Positions 12,921 through 19,009 of a stretch of DNA of 64,000 nucleotides are shown piece after piece (the first letter of the stretch is position 1; every line of letters begins with the position of its first letter). Below the pieces are notes generated by a model that ran no database searches, was not told the origin of the DNA, and was given only the letters and a program-made list of their open reading frames with translations. This DNA comes from Streptomyces sp. V2I9 (GTDB taxonomy: Bacteria > Actinomycetota > Actinomycetes > Streptomycetales > Streptomycetaceae), in assembly GCF_030817475.1 (NCBI RefSeq), contig NZ_JAUSZJ010000002.1:1789501-1853500 (forward strand), given 5' to 3'. The position numbers and the translations under genes are program-made.

Positions 12921-13274
12921 CTAGGGGCGGTCCAGCTTGAGCCGTTCCGCTTTCGGGAGGCCGGCGACCACCAGGTCGTAGGAGTCCTCGATCAGCTCGC
13001 GCAGCAGCCGGTCGGGGACGTCGGAGACGGTGACCGTGTTCCAGTGGCGCTTGTTCATGTGCCAACCGGGCACGATCGCGGGGTGCGTCCCGCGCAGCCG
13101 GATCGCCTCGTCGGGATCGCACTTGAGGTTGATCGTGAGCGGCTGTCCGGCGAGCGCGGTGAGGGCGAACATCTTGCCGAGCACCTTGAAGACCGAGGTC
13201 TCCGGGCCGAACGGGAACTCCTCCACGCTCGCGTTGAACTCCAGGCAGAAGGCCCGCAGCCGCTCCGGCGTCAT
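12921..13274 (-). CDS. MmcQ/YjbR family DNA-binding protein
   Basis: A 117-aa protein with the family pattern: N-terminal FCLEFNASVEEFPFGPETSVFKVLGKMFAL, then LTINLKCDPDEAIRLRG and the C-terminal HMNKRHWNTVTV ... LIEDSYDLVVAGLPK. YjbR proteins have a double-wing fold related to DNA-binding domains, but the cellular role is not established. Its ATG overlaps the corC-like stop by 4 nt (ATGA), so it is translated in the same operon. Confidence 0.85.
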   Translation of the reverse strand: MTPERLRAFCLEFNASVEEFPFGPETSVFKVLGKMFALTALAGQPLTINLKCDPDEAIRLRGTHPAIVPGWHMNKRHWNTVTVSDVPDRLLRELIEDSYDLVVAGLPKAERLKLDRP

Positions 13275-14569
13275 TCCGCTTCCTTCTCCTCGGGTTCGGC
13301 GGGCGCGGGCTCCACGAGCACCGTGACGATCTTGTTGCGGCGGCCGGCCGGGGACTCCGCGGTGAGCCGGAGACGACGGCCGTCGGGCAGTTCGACGCCG
13401 GCCGACGCCCCGGCGATCGGGACCCGGCCGAGCGCCTTGGCGAGCAGTCCGCCGACGGTCTCCACGTCCTCGTCGTCGTACTCGTCGAGCCCGAAGAGGT
13501 CGCCGAGGTCCCCGATGTCGAGGCGGGCGGTGACCCGGTAGCAGCCGTTCTCCAGCTCCTGGACGGGCGGCAGCTCCCGGTCGTACTCGTCGGTGATCTC
13601 GCCGACGATCTCCTCCAGGATGTCCTCGATGGTGACGATGCCCGCGGTGCCGCCGTACTCGTCGATGACGACCGCTACATGGCTGCGGTCCTGCTGCATC
13701 TCGCGCAGCAGGTCGCCGGCGTTCTTCGTGTCGGGGACGAAGGCGGCGGGGCGCATCGCCGTGGAGACCGGGTCGGACTCGGACTCGCGGTTGATGTGCG
13801 TCTTGCGGACCAGGTCCTTGAGGTAGACGATCCCGACGACGTCGTCCTCGTTCTCGCCGGTGACCGGTATCCGGGAGAAGCCGGAGCGCAGGGCGAGGGT
13901 GAGGGCCTGACGGATCGTCTTGAAACGCTCGATGCAGACGAGGTCGGTGCGGGGCACCATGACCTCGCGGACCAGGGTGTCGCCCAGCTCGAAGACGGAG
14001 TGCACCATGCGGCGCTCGTCGTCCTCGATGAGCGACTCCGCCTCGGCCAGGTCCACCATGGCCCGCAGTTCGGCCTCGCTGGCGAACGGGCCTTTGCGGA
14101 ACCCCTTGCCCGGAGTCAGCGCGTTGCCGACGAGGATCAGCAGCTGGGGGATCGGCCCCATGATCCGGGCCAGCGGCAGCAGGACGTACGCCGCCGCCGT
14201 GGCCGTGTTCAGCGGGTGCTGGCGGCCGATGGTGCGCGGGGAGACGCCGATGGCGACGTAGCTCACGAGGACCATGACGCCCATCGCCACGGCCAGCGCC
14301 TCCCAGGTCTCGGGGAGCGTCCGGAGACAGGCGTAGGTGACGAGGACCCCGGCCGACATCTCGCAGGCCACCCGCACCAGCAGGGCCACGTTGAGGTAGC
14401 GGGTCGGGTCGGCGGCGATCTGCGCCAGCTTCGCGCTGCCGCGGCGGCCGGAGCGGACGGCCTCCTCCGCCCGGAAGCTGGAGGTGCGGGCGATCCCGGC
14501 CTCCGCGCAGGCGGCGAGCCAGCCGACGACGACCAGCAGGACGGCGCCGACGATCAGGGGCGCGCTCAC
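13271..14569 (-). CDS. Hemolysin/CorC family membrane protein (CNNM, two CBS)
   Basis: Predicted divalent metal (magnesium or cobalt) transport protein. It has an N-terminal DUF21/CNNM domain of three to four membrane helices (residues about 1-140), two CBS domains with [21 protein letters not shown] and [23 protein letters not shown] ... [32 protein letters not shown], and a C-terminal CorC_HlyC domain. Its start overlaps the ybeY stop by 4 nt and its stop overlaps mmcQ. Hemolysin is a legacy label; toxin activity is not implied. Confidence 0.9.
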
Positions 14570-15063
14570 GAGACGGTCGGGGCGGGGGACGCGCCGGTGA
14601 GCCCCTGCTCGCCGCGCCAGCCGTCCACGATGGCGGCCTGGAGGCCGAACATCTCGGCCTTCTCGTCCGGCTCCTCGTGGTCGTACCCCAGCAGGTGCAG
14701 CACCCCGTGGACGGTCAGGAGCTGGAGCTCCTCGTCCATGGAGTGCTGCGTCGGGGCCTCTTCGCCCTGCTTCTTCGCGACCTCCGGGCAGAGCACGATG
14801 TCACCCAGGAGCCCCTGCGGGGGCTCCTGGTCGTCCTTGGCCGGCGGACGCAGCTCGTCCATCGGGAAGGACATGACATCGGTCGGACCGGGGAGGTCCA
14901 TCCACTGGATGTGCAGCTGCTCCATGGCGTCGGTGTCCACCACGATCACCGAGAGCTCGGACAGCGGGTGGATCCGCATCCGGGCCAGTGCGTAGCGGGC
15001 GATGTCGAGGATCGCCTGCTCGTCGACCTCGGTTCCGGACTCGTTGTTGACGTCGATCGACAT
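14566..15063 (-). CDS. ybeY: Endoribonuclease YbeY (16S rRNA maturation)
   Basis: Metal-dependent RNase involved in 16S rRNA 3' end maturation and ribosome quality control. The zinc signature [11 protein letters not shown] (three His, H-x3-H-x5-H) followed by EEPDE is intact. Length 165 aa. It sits 12 nt after phoH, the usual phoH-ybeY-corC order. Confidence 0.95.
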
Positions 15064-15075
15064 GGTGCGCTGCGA

Positions 15076-17208
15076 CTACTTCCCTTTTCGGCGGTCGCGT
15101 CGGCCGTCCTCGCGGCCGTCCGACTGACCGTTGCGGCTGTCGTACTTCTCGTACGCGTCGACGATACGGCCGACGAGCTTGTGCCGGACGACATCCTGGG
15201 AGCTGAGCCGGGAGAAGTGCACGTCCTCCACGTCCTCCAGGATCTCCTGGACCTGCCGGAGCCCGCTCCTGGTGCCGCTCGGCAGGTCGACCTGGGTGAC
15301 GTCACCGGTGATGACGATCTTGGAGTCGAAGCCGAGGCGGGTGAGGAACATCTTCATCTGCTCGGCGCTGGTGTTCTGCGCCTCGTCCAGGATGATGAAG
15401 GCGTCATTGAGGGTGTTGTGCGTCAGCAGGTAGTCCTGCGTGACGTACAGCGAGTCCTCCGCCGCCACCTGGATACAGACGGCCTCTTCGCGTCCTGCGG
15501 GCTCGATACTGTCGATGAACCGCATCGGTCGTCCGCCGCCTCCGGCCGCGCTGTACTTCTCGGCCTTGCGGGCAAGCCGGAAGGGCTCGATGCCCTCAGG
15601 GAGGCGGATGTCGACGACGTGGGCGTCGTAGCGGTGGTGGACCTCCCGGCCCCGGGCCAGACCCGGTGCCCGGCCCTCCGCCTGCCGACGGCGGGTGTAC
15701 GCCACTCCGCCGAGCGACTGGACAAGGGCGATCACGTCGTCGCGAAGCACGATCGACGAGGTCGAGTACTGAACGCGACAGGTGCGGTCCGACTGCGTGA
15801 CCGGACCTCCGTCGGCGTCCAGGAGCCCCTGGAGCACCGCAACGCGGACCTCTGCGGAATTGTGCAGATAGTCGTCCGGAACGAACTTCGAGTGGGACCG
15901 GGTCCCTAGAAGGTCCAGTTGGCGCAGGATGGCGGTGACCGGATTCTCCAGGGTCACTACATCGCCCGGCGCCTTGGTCCGGTTGAGCACGTAGTCCGGG
16001 CCGCCCTTGTGCCGCACGGTGACACCGGTGAGCGCTCCTTGCAGAGCTTCGGCCAGTTCGGGGTCGGTGGTGGCGAACGACGGTGTGGTGGAGCCGGTGA
16101 GGCAGCCATCGCCGAGTAGCAGGCCCAGTGCGTACGGGTCCATCGGGACCTCACGCTCCGGGAAGGCGACCGGCGCGGTCAGCATCGGCAGCTCGTAGCG
16201 ACGTGCGTGCGCCGCGCGGAGGTTGCCGATCATCTCCTTGGTCTCCAGGACCCGCCACGGCTTGTCCCTGCGGCGGTCCGAAGCGGTTCGGACAGTCCAC
16301 AGGTGCTCGCCGCAGCAAAGCGTCCAAGAACCGTCCTGCGCGCTGACGCGGTAGATGTCCTTCTCGCCTTGCGGGTAGACCCCCAGGACAGGGGTCGGCT
16401 CACCGTTGGAGCCGATGACGAGGTCACCCACCTGGAGACTGCCGATGGAGCGCCAGCCGTCCGGGGTCAGGACGTTGGTGAAAACGGGTTGCGCACGGCC
16501 CCGCATGTACGCCAGTGGCGCGACCTCGATCGTGCCCGCCGCCATCAGGCGCGGGATCGAGTCGGGGTCGAGCATGTCGTGCAGGGCGTCGTAGAGCGGG
16601 CGCAGATACGGGTCGATCTTGTCGAACAGGGTGCCCGGCAGGAAGCCGAGCCGCTCCCCCGCCTCGACCGCCGGACGGGTCAGGATGATCCGGCTGACCT
16701 GCTTGGACTGCAGGGCCTGGACGGCCTTGGCCATGGCGAGGTAGGTCTTGCCCGTACCGGCGGGACCGATGCCGAACACGATCGTGTGCTGGTCGATCGC
16801 GTCCACGTACCGCTTCTGGTTGAGCGTCTTGGGGCGGATGGTGCGGCCGCGGTTGGAGAGGATGTTCTGCGTGAGCACCTCGGCGGGCGTCTCGCCCTCG
16901 GGGTCTCCCTGTCCGTTGCCGGCCGCCCTGAGCATGGCGATCGACCGTTCCACTGCGTCCTCCGTCATCGGCGCTCCGGTGCGGAGCACGAGCATCATCT
17001 CGTCGAACAGGCGTTGGATGAGAGCGACGTCGGCGGCCTCACCGGTGGCACTGATCTCGTTGCCCCGGACGTGGATGTCGGCTGCCGGGAAAGCCTCTTC
17101 GATCACGCGCAGCAGCGAGTCGCCCGATCCGAGGAGCATCACCATGGGGTGTGCGGCCGGGATCCTGATCTGGGCACGCGCCTGCGGCTGTGTGGGTGAC
17201 TGAGTCAT
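15076..17208 (-). CDS. phoH: PhoH family ATPase interrupted by an intein
   Basis: The host protein is a PhoH-like P-loop ATPase (PhoH2/YbeZ type), often tied to RNA metabolism with YbeY. It has an N-terminal KH-like region, Walker A GIGPAGTGKT (residues 146-155), ILTRPAVEAGERLGFLPG, and Walker B FIILDEAQN (604-612), with TGDVTQVDLPSGTRSGL further on. Residues 239-598 are an in-frame intein; removing them leaves a normal 350-aa PhoH in which YMRGR joins TLNDAF. Activity therefore depends on splicing. The precursor is 710 aa. First gene of phoH-ybeY-corC-mmcQ. Confidence 0.95.
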   Translation of the reverse strand: MTQSPTQPQARAQIRIPAAHPMVMLLGSGDSLLRVIEEAFPAADIHVRGNEISATGEAADVALIQRLFDEMMLVLRTGAPMTEDAVERSIAMLRAAGNGQGDPEGETPAEVLTQNILSNRGRTIRPKTLNQKRYVDAIDQHTIVFGIGPAGTGKTYLAMAKAVQALQSKQVSRIILTRPAVEAGERLGFLPGTLFDKIDPYLRPLYDALHDMLDPDSIPRLMAAGTIEVAPLAYMRGRAQPVFTNVLTPDGWRSIGSLQVGDLVIGSNGEPTPVLGVYPQGEKDIYRVSAQDGSWTLCCGEHLWTVRTASDRRRDKPWRVLETKEMIGNLRAAHARRYELPMLTAPVAFPEREVPMDPYALGLLLGDGCLTGSTTPSFATTDPELAEALQGALTGVTVRHKGGPDYVLNRTKAPGDVVTLENPVTAILRQLDLLGTRSHSKFVPDDYLHNSAEVRVAVLQGLLDADGGPVTQSDRTCRVQYSTSSIVLRDDVIALVQSLGGVAYTRRRQAEGRAPGLARGREVHHRYDAHVVDIRLPEGIEPFRLARKAEKYSAAGGGGRPMRFIDSIEPAGREEAVCIQVAAEDSLYVTQDYLLTHNTLNDAFIILDEAQNTSAEQMKMFLTRLGFDSKIVITGDVTQVDLPSGTRSGLRQVQEILEDVEDVHFSRLSSQDVVRHKLVGRIVDAYEKYDSRNGQSDGREDGRRDRRKGK
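15415..16494 (-). mobile_element. Class 3 intein with LAGLIDADG homing endonuclease, in phoH
   Basis: Residues A239-N598 of the precursor (360 aa). The N-terminal block starts AQPVFTNVLTPDGWRSIGSLQ and has Ala, not Cys or Ser, at position 1. Block B is CCGEHLWTV with Trp304 two after the His; block F has Cys578 (AVCIQV); block G is YLLTHN followed by extein Thr599, with Thr596 before the penultimate His597 and Asn598. Trp, Cys and Thr at these places are the WCT triad of class 3 inteins, in which the block F Cys replaces the usual N-terminal nucleophile. Two dodecapeptides, LGLLLGDGC (361-369) and LQGLLDADG (459-467), keep their catalytic Asp, so the endonuclease may be active. The element sits just before Walker B. 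Confidence 0.92.
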
Positions 17209-17358: not shown

Positions 17359-18537
17359 TCACTGGCGGAAGCCGATCGTGGGCACCGCGCGCCGCAGCGG
17401 CCAGGCGCGGGCCGTGGTGGGCAGCAGGTCGTCCAGGAAGGCGTAGCGCTCCAGGGCGGCGGGCTCCTGGCGGTCGCAGGTGCGGACCAGTTGCCACCAG
17501 GCGGCGATCTCGGCCCAGCCGGGGGCGGAGAGCGAGCCGCCGAACTCCTGGACGGAGAGGGCTGCGGTGAGGCCCGCGAAGGCGAGGCGGTCGGCGAGCG
17601 GCCAGTCGGCGAGGGTGCCGGTCACGAAGCCGGCGACGAACACGTCACCCGCGCCGGTCGGGTCCAGCGCCTCCACCTCGATGGCGGGCACCTCGGCGGC
17701 GGCGCCGGTGCGCCCGTCCACGGCGTACGCGCCCTCGGCCCCCAGCGTGACCACGGCGAGGGGGACGCGTTCGGCGAGCGCGTGGGCGGCGGCACGGGGA
17801 CAGTCGGTACGGGTGTAGCGCATCGCCTCCTCGGCGTTGGGCAGGAACGCCTCGCAGTGCGCCAGGTCGGGCAGGGCGTCCAGGTCCCACCGGCCGGTCT
17901 CGTCCCAGCCGACGTCGGCGAAGATCAGCGCGCCCTCGCGGGCGGCGGCCGCCACCCAGGGCTCGCTCCGGCCCGGAGCGAGCGAGGCGACGGCGGCGCG
18001 GGCGCGCGGCGGGCAGTGCGGGAAGACCGGGCCGGGGCCGGTCGCGGGCGCGGTGGATCCGGCGGCGGCCGTGGTTCCCGGGGCGGGGGCGGGGGGCGTC
18101 GTTCCGGCGGGAGCCGTGGCGGCGGTGGGCGGGGGCGCCGCGTGCCCGTGCGAGACCATCGTGCGCTCGCCCTCGTACGCCATGGAGACGGTGACCGGGG
18201 AGTGCCAACCGGGGACGGTGTGCGACATCGTCAGGTCGATCCCCTCACCCTGTTCGAGGGCGTCCCAGCAGTACTCCCCGTAGTGGTCGTCCCCGAAGGC
18301 GGCGGCGAGGGAGGTGCGCAGGCCGAGGCGGGCCAGGGCGGTGGCCATGTTGGCGACGCCGCCGGGGCTGGAGCCCATGCCGCGGGCCCAGGACTCGGTG
18401 CCGCGTACCGGGGCGCTGTCGAGGCCCGTGAAGATGATGTCGAGGAAGACCGTGCCGGTCAGGAAGACGTCGCAGGCGGGGTCGCGGGGGGCGCGCAGCG
18501 CCAGCAGCGGGTCGATGCCCGGAGTCTCTGTGCTCAC
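17359..18537 (-). CDS. PfkB/ribokinase family carbohydrate kinase
   Basis: Phosphorylates a sugar or nucleoside; the substrate cannot be told. Family signatures are SPGGVANMATALARLG near the N-terminus and DPTGAGDVFVAGF near the C-terminus (catalytic Asp). A roughly 38-residue Ala/Pro/Thr stretch with no predicted structure interrupts the lid-proximal region after YEGERTMVSHGHAA. GTG 18537 (VSTETPGIDPLLALR) is chosen; the longer frame to 18774 would translate a 33-bp repeat three times. Length 392 aa. Confidence 0.85.
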   Translation of the reverse strand: MSTETPGIDPLLALRAPRDPACDVFLTGTVFLDIIFTGLDSAPVRGTESWARGMGSSPGGVANMATALARLGLRTSLAAAFGDDHYGEYCWDALEQGEGIDLTMSHTVPGWHSPVTVSMAYEGERTMVSHGHAAPPPTAATAPAGTTPPAPAPGTTAAAGSTAPATGPGPVFPHCPPRARAAVASLAPGRSEPWVAAAAREGALIFADVGWDETGRWDLDALPDLAHCEAFLPNAEEAMRYTRTDCPRAAAHALAERVPLAVVTLGAEGAYAVDGRTGAAAEVPAIEVEALDPTGAGDVFVAGFVTGTLADWPLADRLAFAGLTAALSVQEFGGSLSAPGWAEIAAWWQLVRTCDRQEPAALERYAFLDDLLPTTARAWPLRRAVPTIGFRQ

Positions 18538-18554
18538 CGTGGGCTCCCGGATTC

Positions 18555-18653
18555 GTGCGCCGGATCCCGGCTCGATCCGCACCGTGCGAGGTGCGGATCG
18601 AGCCGGGATCCGGACCGTGTGAGGTGCGGATCGGAAGGCGATCCGGACCGGGT
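18555..18653. repeat. Three 33-bp palindromic repeats upstream of the PfkB gene
   Basis: Three successive imperfect copies with period 33 bp, each containing CGGATC ... GATCCG; read in frame they give APHPVRI, APHTVRI, APRTVRI. Two adjacent copies form a perfect 23-bp stem (18561-18583 with 18590-18612, 6-nt loop) starting 23 nt upstream of the kinase GTG. Confidence 0.75.
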
Positions 18654-19009
18654 GGGGTGCGGCCAGTCTGCCCGATCCGGGGAGGGGAACACACTGTTCG
18701 AGCCCTGGTGTTCGCAGCACGCCTGACCTGCATAAACATGCGCTAATACCCGCACTGACCCTGCATAAACACATAAGTGACCCACATCACAGCGGGGCGG
18801 CTTCCGGGGGGCCGGAAGCGCTTGATACAAATTGCCCGCGAGCACCTTCGGGCACCTTGTCCGACGCGAGCCGCGATCTCCTGGCATATCGCCTTACCTC
18901 CGCAGCACCCCTCTGCCTTCTCCCCGTACCCCCTGCTTCGCCGTGCCGTGCCGCAGTACCTCTCCCCTCCCCTCCCCCTGCCTGCTCAGGCATGTCTTCA
19001 GGAACGCCC
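18654..19009. other. Intergenic region between divergent kinase and permease genes
   Basis: About 355 bp with no convincing gene. It has lower GC around 18720-18800 (CTGCATAAACA twice, at about 18728 and 18761), where divergent promoters are likely. Frames that extend the permease upstream are rich in Pro/Cys/Arg and are judged non-coding. Confidence 0.5.

Follow-up and report, generated by a model that had tools for sequence, protein, structure and literature searches.

Introduction

Class 3 inteins of the ATPase PhoH have been published for Mycobacterium fortuitum and M. xenopi (PMC6195587), and a PhoH intein has been published for M. smegmatis (PMC7360933). We analyzed a 64,000-nucleotide stretch of the Streptomyces sp. 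V2I9 genome (contig NZ_JAUSZJ010000002.1, positions 1,789,501 to 1,853,500; hereafter, the window), in which the phoH gene is interrupted by an intein. Class 3 PhoH inteins having been known before, the intein is a well-preserved new member of an already published family; what is new here is a footprint of rare codons at silent positions beside its insertion site. Judging from sequence comparison, it is very probable that the element is a class 3 intein able to splice and home; its visits, or the pressure from them, likely left this footprint.

Mycobacterial loci fetched in this study were occupied at the same site as in the window (MRGR/TLNDAF; the slash marks the insertion point), and five of them that were aligned were 68-73% identical to the window intein, these being fetched loci and not the published sequences. 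In block B, the six mycobacterial loci had SGDH or SSDH, whereas Streptomyces copies mostly had Cys at position B:7. PI-SceI uses class 1 chemistry and has yeast VMA1 as its host. Its two-domain plan, a splicing domain plus a LAGLIDADG endonuclease (PDB 1ef0, 1lwt), is shared by the window intein. The mini-inteins DnaBi1 of M. smegmatis and DnaB1 of M. chimaera (PDB 6bs8, 6rix, 6riy) likewise have the splicing fold and the WCT motif; however, their host is DnaB, their chains are 125-131 residues long, they have no endonuclease domain, and DnaBi1 carries Asp at B:7.

Results

A class 3 intein interrupts phoH

Positions 15076-17208 (minus strand) formed a single open frame in which the Pfam family PF02562 (302 bits) was split by LAGLIDADG_3 (44 bits, cut-off 22.5). 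PF02562 spanned both exteins as two matched stretches and both Walker A and Walker B were present, showing that the host is a PhoH family ATPase. A preliminary description of this DNA had reported a 360-residue in-frame insertion in PhoH; it was confirmed at exactly 15415-16494, with Ala1 (residue 239), Trp304, Cys578, Thr596, His597, Asn598 and extein Thr599 all in the places given there (Table 1). When the flanks MRGR/TLNDAFIILDEAQ were joined, an uninterrupted PhoH resulted. The insertion was placed after Walker A and six residues ahead of Walker B (as marked here), and because it parts the two motifs, the interrupted protein very likely needs splicing. The earlier claim that PhoH activity requires splicing is thus very likely right for this protein, but the 7.16-Mb genome also encodes a second PhoH, a PIN fusion in which the matching site IRGR/SLHDAF is uninterrupted (L191:574-1893), so loss of splicing need not abolish all PhoH-type activity. 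The PhoH intein was the sole match to the intein query in this genome and the sole LAGLIDADG_3 match found there.

The WCT motif of class 3 inteins consists of Trp at B:12, Cys at F:4 and Thr at G:5 (PMC3196547). The window intein had all three (Trp304, Cys578 and Thr596), and its Ala1 agreed with a class that can do without an N-terminal nucleophile and seldom has Ser, Thr or Cys at position 1. Tori and Perler (2011) reportedly described members of this class that start with Ser or Cys. A PhoH intein starting with Cys, with the WCT residues kept, was seen in a Streptosporangiaceae metagenome-assembled genome (L134:3673-4749). The in-frame position, blocks A, B, F and G, the His-Asn end, the +1 nucleophile and absence from relatives mark the insertion as an intein, and two motifs with acidic residues together with the fold mark a LAGLIDADG homing endonuclease domain. 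The motifs LLLGDG and LLDADG retained their Asp residues, in agreement with the preliminary description, which had also assigned the intein to class 3. The W, C, T, H, N and LAGLIDADG Asp residues were found in 45/45 pattern-extracted Streptomyces copies. Since these key residues were kept in every such copy and the exact empty site was present in 327/392 genomes, the insertion is not due to chance. By this signature, residues 239-598 are a class 3 intein enclosing a LAGLIDADG endonuclease domain that looks intact.

A structure model of the window intein matched a class 3 intein and PI-SceI, with 6bs8 as the best match for the splicing domain; by sequence, the nearest solved relatives were the class 1 intein gp41-1, followed by the class 3 inteins MchDnaB1 and MsmDnaBi1. 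Replacement of the block B Thr of TxxH (CGEH in the window) had been called unusual. This was not borne out: Cys was the commonest residue at B:7 among 127 aligned PhoH inteins (two collections pooled, some genomes counted twice; Table 1), Cys was found there in several phage-contig class 3 relatives as well, and class 3 inteins generally lack this Thr, DnaBi1 with its Asp included (PMC6195587).

Distribution of occupied and empty sites

The survey of phoH in relatives proposed in the preliminary description gave 51/392 Streptomyces genomes with the PhoH intein and 341/392 with an empty site. The occupied genomes were 46 found by junction match and 5 intein copies with the variant C-extein TLNEAF; the empty ones were 327 exact pattern matches and 14 found by protein search, after a pattern for the variant site had given 0/19 genomes. 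The close relatives S. rubiginosohelvolus (L171) and S. globisporus (L172) had empty sites, and their PhoH segments were 99% identical to that of the window in the best matched stretch. In a class-level sample, 16/178 genomes had a match of at least 60% identity to the query, read as PhoH-type with the host gene not checked in each. Genera with an occupied MRGR/TLNDAF site also included Lentzea, Nonomuraea, Mycobacterium and Gordonia. A quick tree of 165 phoH exteins, 50 of them occupied, required 41 or more changes of occupancy (a raw count), indicating scattered presence. The literature search found no paper joining intein, Streptomyces and 'phosphate starvation-inducible', and among the papers listed on inteins and PhoH no title named Streptomyces.

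A rare-codon footprint at the insertion site

Compared with its two empty sister alleles, the window sequence was 97% identical far from the site and only 88% and 85% identical within 30 bases of it. Codons were called non-preferred when their third base was A or T, or when they were AGG or TTG, and were scored from codon -6 to codon +4. We parsed 165 Streptomyces alleles from 169 loci, namely 115/118 fetched empty and 50/51 occupied ones; the empty loci were 100 taken in listing order plus 4 from exact-pattern matches and 14 from the protein search, out of the total of 341. The frequency of non-preferred codons at the site was 0.268 in occupied alleles, compared with 0.046 elsewhere in the gene, and 0.165 in empty alleles, compared with 0.043 elsewhere. 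Almost all occupied alleles (47/50) were above their own background at the site. Restriction to codons whose amino acid was at least 90% conserved left the values at 0.166 (empty) and 0.268 (occupied). The top 11-codon interval was centred on codon -1, ranking first of 181 intervals in empty alleles and first of 179 in occupied alleles.

A second RGRT earlier in the gene served as control. It had 0.35 (110 empty alleles) and 0.26 (47 occupied alleles) non-preferred codons per four codons, and the corresponding values for the insertion site were 0.93 and 1.43. The site exceeded the control in 52/110 empty and 33/47 occupied alleles and fell below it in 13 and 3, respectively. At least three non-preferred codons of ten were found in 29/50 occupied and 32/115 empty alleles, for the latter of which about 0.9 would be expected from a binomial at the background rate, while 70/115 empty alleles had none or one.

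Nearest pairs of alleles, each allele used once and far divergence at most 0.10, gave a similar picture. Divergence rose from 0.053 far from the site to 0.114 at the site in 37 empty-empty pairs (site higher in 31), from 0.053 to 0.184 in 35 empty-occupied pairs (higher in 35), and from 0.041 to 0.108 in 7 occupied-occupied pairs (higher in 7). The divergence of the control segment was 0.044, 0.063 and 0.078, respectively. Empty alleles with the footprint were slightly nearer to an occupied allele than other empty alleles (median 0.052 vs 0.062, p 0.01).

The codon interval was chosen after the Streptomyces profile had been seen; the comparison of families, the weightiest of the controls, was done later, with the interval fixed. 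It used 70 loci (30 given and 40 picked by family, their 27-base matches having been seen beforehand; 1/70 was a duplicate), omitted families of evidently lower GC content, and counted a family as lacking the PhoH intein when none was seen in the 178-genome class sample. In families without the intein, 46 empty alleles had 33/460 non-preferred codons (0.072), close to the background of 0.064. By contrast, 23 empty alleles of non-Streptomyces families with the intein had 45/230 (0.196, background 0.068), and 8 of these had at least three. The 32/115 Streptomyces empty alleles reaching that mark differed from the 3/46 in families without the intein (Fisher's test, p 0.0027, kinship within families ignored). 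Occupied alleles outside Streptomyces (n=41) had 0.224, compared with 0.060 elsewhere, and were higher at the site in 38. These family controls show that the footprint tracks the intein and not phoH as such. Strong rare-codon marks were also seen in three single empty phoH alleles, L303 (family f30, 3/10 codons), L304 (f11, 6/10) and L305 (f12, 4/10); of these three families, f11 alone showed a PhoH intein in the class sample.

Several results weigh against a footprint left by homing. Only 79/115 empty alleles were above their own background at the site, and the permutation p values of 0.0074 (empty) and 0.0002 (occupied) are optimistic since the interval was picked post hoc. The control segment was also above far divergence in 13/37 empty-empty, 21/35 empty-occupied and 6/7 occupied-occupied pairs, and the region from -60 to -15 likewise diverged above average in both pair types. 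Three of the 46 empty alleles from families without the intein reached at least three non-preferred codons. Over 15 well-supported independent pairs, the link between footprint and occupancy was not significant (median p 0.29), and inteins of Streptomyces at other sites showed no clear footprint (RecG 0.071 vs 0.048, 7 alleles; DnaB 0.129 vs 0.048, 7 alleles). Empty alleles bearing the footprint lay no closer to the flanks of occupied alleles (mean minimum distance 3.53) than to those of 50 random empty alleles (3.49), which argues against simple shared co-conversion. Endonucleases of the LAGLIDADG homing kind tolerate single synonymous changes (PMC3024317), which argues against simple escape.

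Cause of the footprint

The footprint likely marks change driven by the endonuclease, for which co-conversion, error-prone repair and escape are the candidates. Error-prone repair of the cut is our leading guess from the sequences: it would yield private local changes in both occupied and empty alleles. The flanks were private to lineages, with 50 distinct 33-mers in 50 occupied alleles; the control 33-mer was distinct in 29/47. Co-conversion has been described for both inteins and introns, with tracts that may outlast the element (PMC10643990, PMC3192709). As in the tracts of the plant cox1 intron (PMC3192709) and the archaeal MCM intein (PMC10643990), the host flanks of PhoH are altered around the homing site; unlike those tracts, the PhoH mark consists of rare synonymous codons private to lineages, with no shared donor haplotype. 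That shared donor haplotypes alone produced the mark was not borne out, given private flanks and no closeness to occupied flanks. After correction for extein distance, flank distance among the 50 occupied alleles was weakly correlated with intein distance (partial r 0.099, p 0.05); after correction for intein distance, its correlation with extein distance was as weak (0.106, p 0.015).

It is also conceivable, though rather unlikely, that the footprint reflects selection for synonymous changes by which empty alleles evade the endonuclease, and is not a scar of past occupancy. The divergence of close empty-empty pairs at the site fits such escape, as does the presence of AGG, AGA and TTG, codons that require a first-base change. 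However, the footprint was stronger in occupied alleles, which need no escape, and the tolerance of such endonucleases to single synonymous changes speaks against it too. That rare codons are intrinsic to phoH, for translation pausing or RNA structure and unconnected with the intein, is improbable. Empty alleles do bear rare codons, including the few marked ones in families without the intein, but the average mark was missing from those families and present in empty alleles of other intein-bearing families, RGRT elsewhere in the gene was far less affected, and the rare codons were private to lineages. A general property of phoH was thereby rejected on the RGRT control and the family comparison.

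Returning to a footprint left by homing, it may be, tentatively, that homing-visited genes keep a scar of about 11 codons of rare synonymous changes at the insertion site which outlives the intein. The usual evidence for gain and loss cycles of homing elements is their scattered presence; were scars to mark visits, empty genes would become evidence. Genes invaded in the past could then be told from those never invaded, invasions and losses could be counted, the hidden history of homing could be traced across a whole bacterial order, and cutting, repair or escape could be tested at silent positions of a conserved gene. No report of a codon-level footprint at intein sites was found among the titles and opening lines of abstracts listed in a literature search of open-licence papers.

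Predicted splicing, homing and selection

The class 3 splicing pathway was taken from PMC4031507 and PMC7664689. Splicing of this class runs through a branched block F intermediate on Cys F:4. In the window intein, Cys578 would attack the Arg238-Ala239 bond, the N-extein would then pass to Thr599, and Asn598 would cyclise, releasing the intein and joining the exteins into a normal PhoH of 350 residues. By prediction, the endonuclease cuts phoH genes without the intein at RGR/TLN, whereupon repair would copy the intein in; homing into empty sites would explain the scattered presence of the PhoH intein. Each visit, or the pressure from visits, likely altered silent positions over some 11 codons flanking the insertion point, and the footprint would remain in occupied alleles as well as in roughly one in four empty ones.

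For 300 random Streptomyces pairs, the ratio of nonsynonymous to synonymous polymorphism (pN/pS) was 0.12 and 0.10 for the two splicing parts and 0.13 for the extein core; the linker had a value of 0.22 and the endonuclease one of 0.27. Every splicing residue checked was unchanged in 127/127 copies. This invariance and the low pN/pS, which indicates purifying selection, fit a working splicing element with its endonuclease retained.

Redox or metal sensitivity, suggested in the preliminary description, would be an analogy with the mycobacterial DnaB inteins (PMC6195587, PMC7360933). A PhoH intein acting as a redox switch, in which the B:7 Cys next to Ala1 would form a disulfide with Cys F:4 and pause PhoH maturation, seems unlikely on balance. 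Cys occupied B:7 in 107/127 copies, and DnaBi1 of M. smegmatis has its B:7 Asp close to Ala1 and its catalytic Cys disulfide-bonded to another Cys (PMC6195587); on the other hand, Ser or Thr at B:7 in 20/127 copies shows that Cys is not required, and the intein-free PhoH paralogue could compensate for a pause. A decayed intein that merely persists, neither splicing nor cutting, is very improbable in view of the invariant splicing residues, the open frame in the window and an intein pN/pS of 0.10-0.27, even though a few copies were damaged: one was split into several frames (L054, in a genome of 55% completeness), and among 127 copies the first LAGLIDADG Asp was replaced by Glu in one and a second-motif Asp by Gly in one.

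Feature coordinates and neighboring genes

Table 1. Features of the interrupted phoH gene (window positions) and residue conservation among 127 aligned PhoH inteins.
Feature	Position	Strand	Details
phoH precursor gene	15076..17208	minus	710 aa = 350-aa PhoH + 360-aa intein
N-extein, residues 1-238, C-terminal end ...PLAYMRGR	16495..17208	minus	
PhoH Walker A GPAGTGKT, residues 148-155, within N-extein	16744..16767	minus	sequence reading
Footprint, upstream half, codons -6 to -1	16495..16512	minus	
Class 3 intein with LAGLIDADG endonuclease, residues 239-598	15415..16494	minus	
Ala1 (residue 239), non-nucleophilic	16492..16494	minus	Ala 102, Ser 24, Cys 1 of 127
Cys299, block B:7 (Thr position of TxxH)	16312..16314	minus	Cys 107, Ser 16, Thr 4 of 127
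His302, block B:10	16303..16305	minus	127/127
Trp304, block B:12, W of WCT motif	16297..16299	minus	127/127
First LAGLIDADG motif LGLLLGDGCL, residues 361-370	16099..16128	minus	Asp in 126/127
Second LAGLIDADG motif LQGLLDADGG, residues 459-468	15805..15834	minus	two Asp in 127 and 126 of 127
Cys578, block F:4, predicted initiating nucleophile	15475..15477	minus	127/127
Thr596-His597-Asn598, block G:5-G:7	15415..15423	minus	each 127/127
Thr599, +1 extein nucleophile	15412..15414	minus	Thr 126, Ser 1 of 127
C-extein, residues 599-710 + stop, first residues TLNDAFIILDEAQ	15076..15414	minus	
Footprint, downstream half, codons 0 to +4	15400..15414	minus	
PhoH Walker B IILDE, residues 605-609, within C-extein	15382..15396	minus	sequence reading

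On the same strand as phoH, genes for YbeY, a CNNM/CBS/CorC protein and YjbR lie downstream and one for a PfkB kinase lies upstream (window 12921-15063, 17359-18774).

Related class 3 inteins at other sites

Class 3 inteins on phage contigs (L075-L092) resembled the window intein in nine aligned cases (30-45% identity), in the THN end, and in a YPQGEKDI stretch in those read. They differed in lying mostly at Walker A of other ATPases, and L091 and L092 lacked most of the endonuclease. One viral contig encoded a PhoH-like ATPase (L079:3001-4095) with its class 3 intein at Walker A, not at the Walker B site, and with CCGEH in block B.

Class 3 inteins in RecG and DnaB of Streptomyces (14 loci among L057-L073) were 31-46% identical to the window intein in matched stretches but were inserted at Walker A, several with a shortened endonuclease region. 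Seven loci (L057, L058, L062, L064, L069, L070, L072) carried the intein in RecG at Walker A (GSGK/T); the endonuclease region was shortened in L064, L069 and L070, and many of the other matches listed lay in frames of similar length. Besides its class 3 intein at Walker A, DnaB of L068 and L073 had another intein-like insertion farther along the protein. In L060 and L071, genes for an AAA+ ATPase and a conjugation-type ATPase (1447 and 1715 aa frames in L071) lay close together and both held class 3 inteins, the AAA+ protein of L071 having two.
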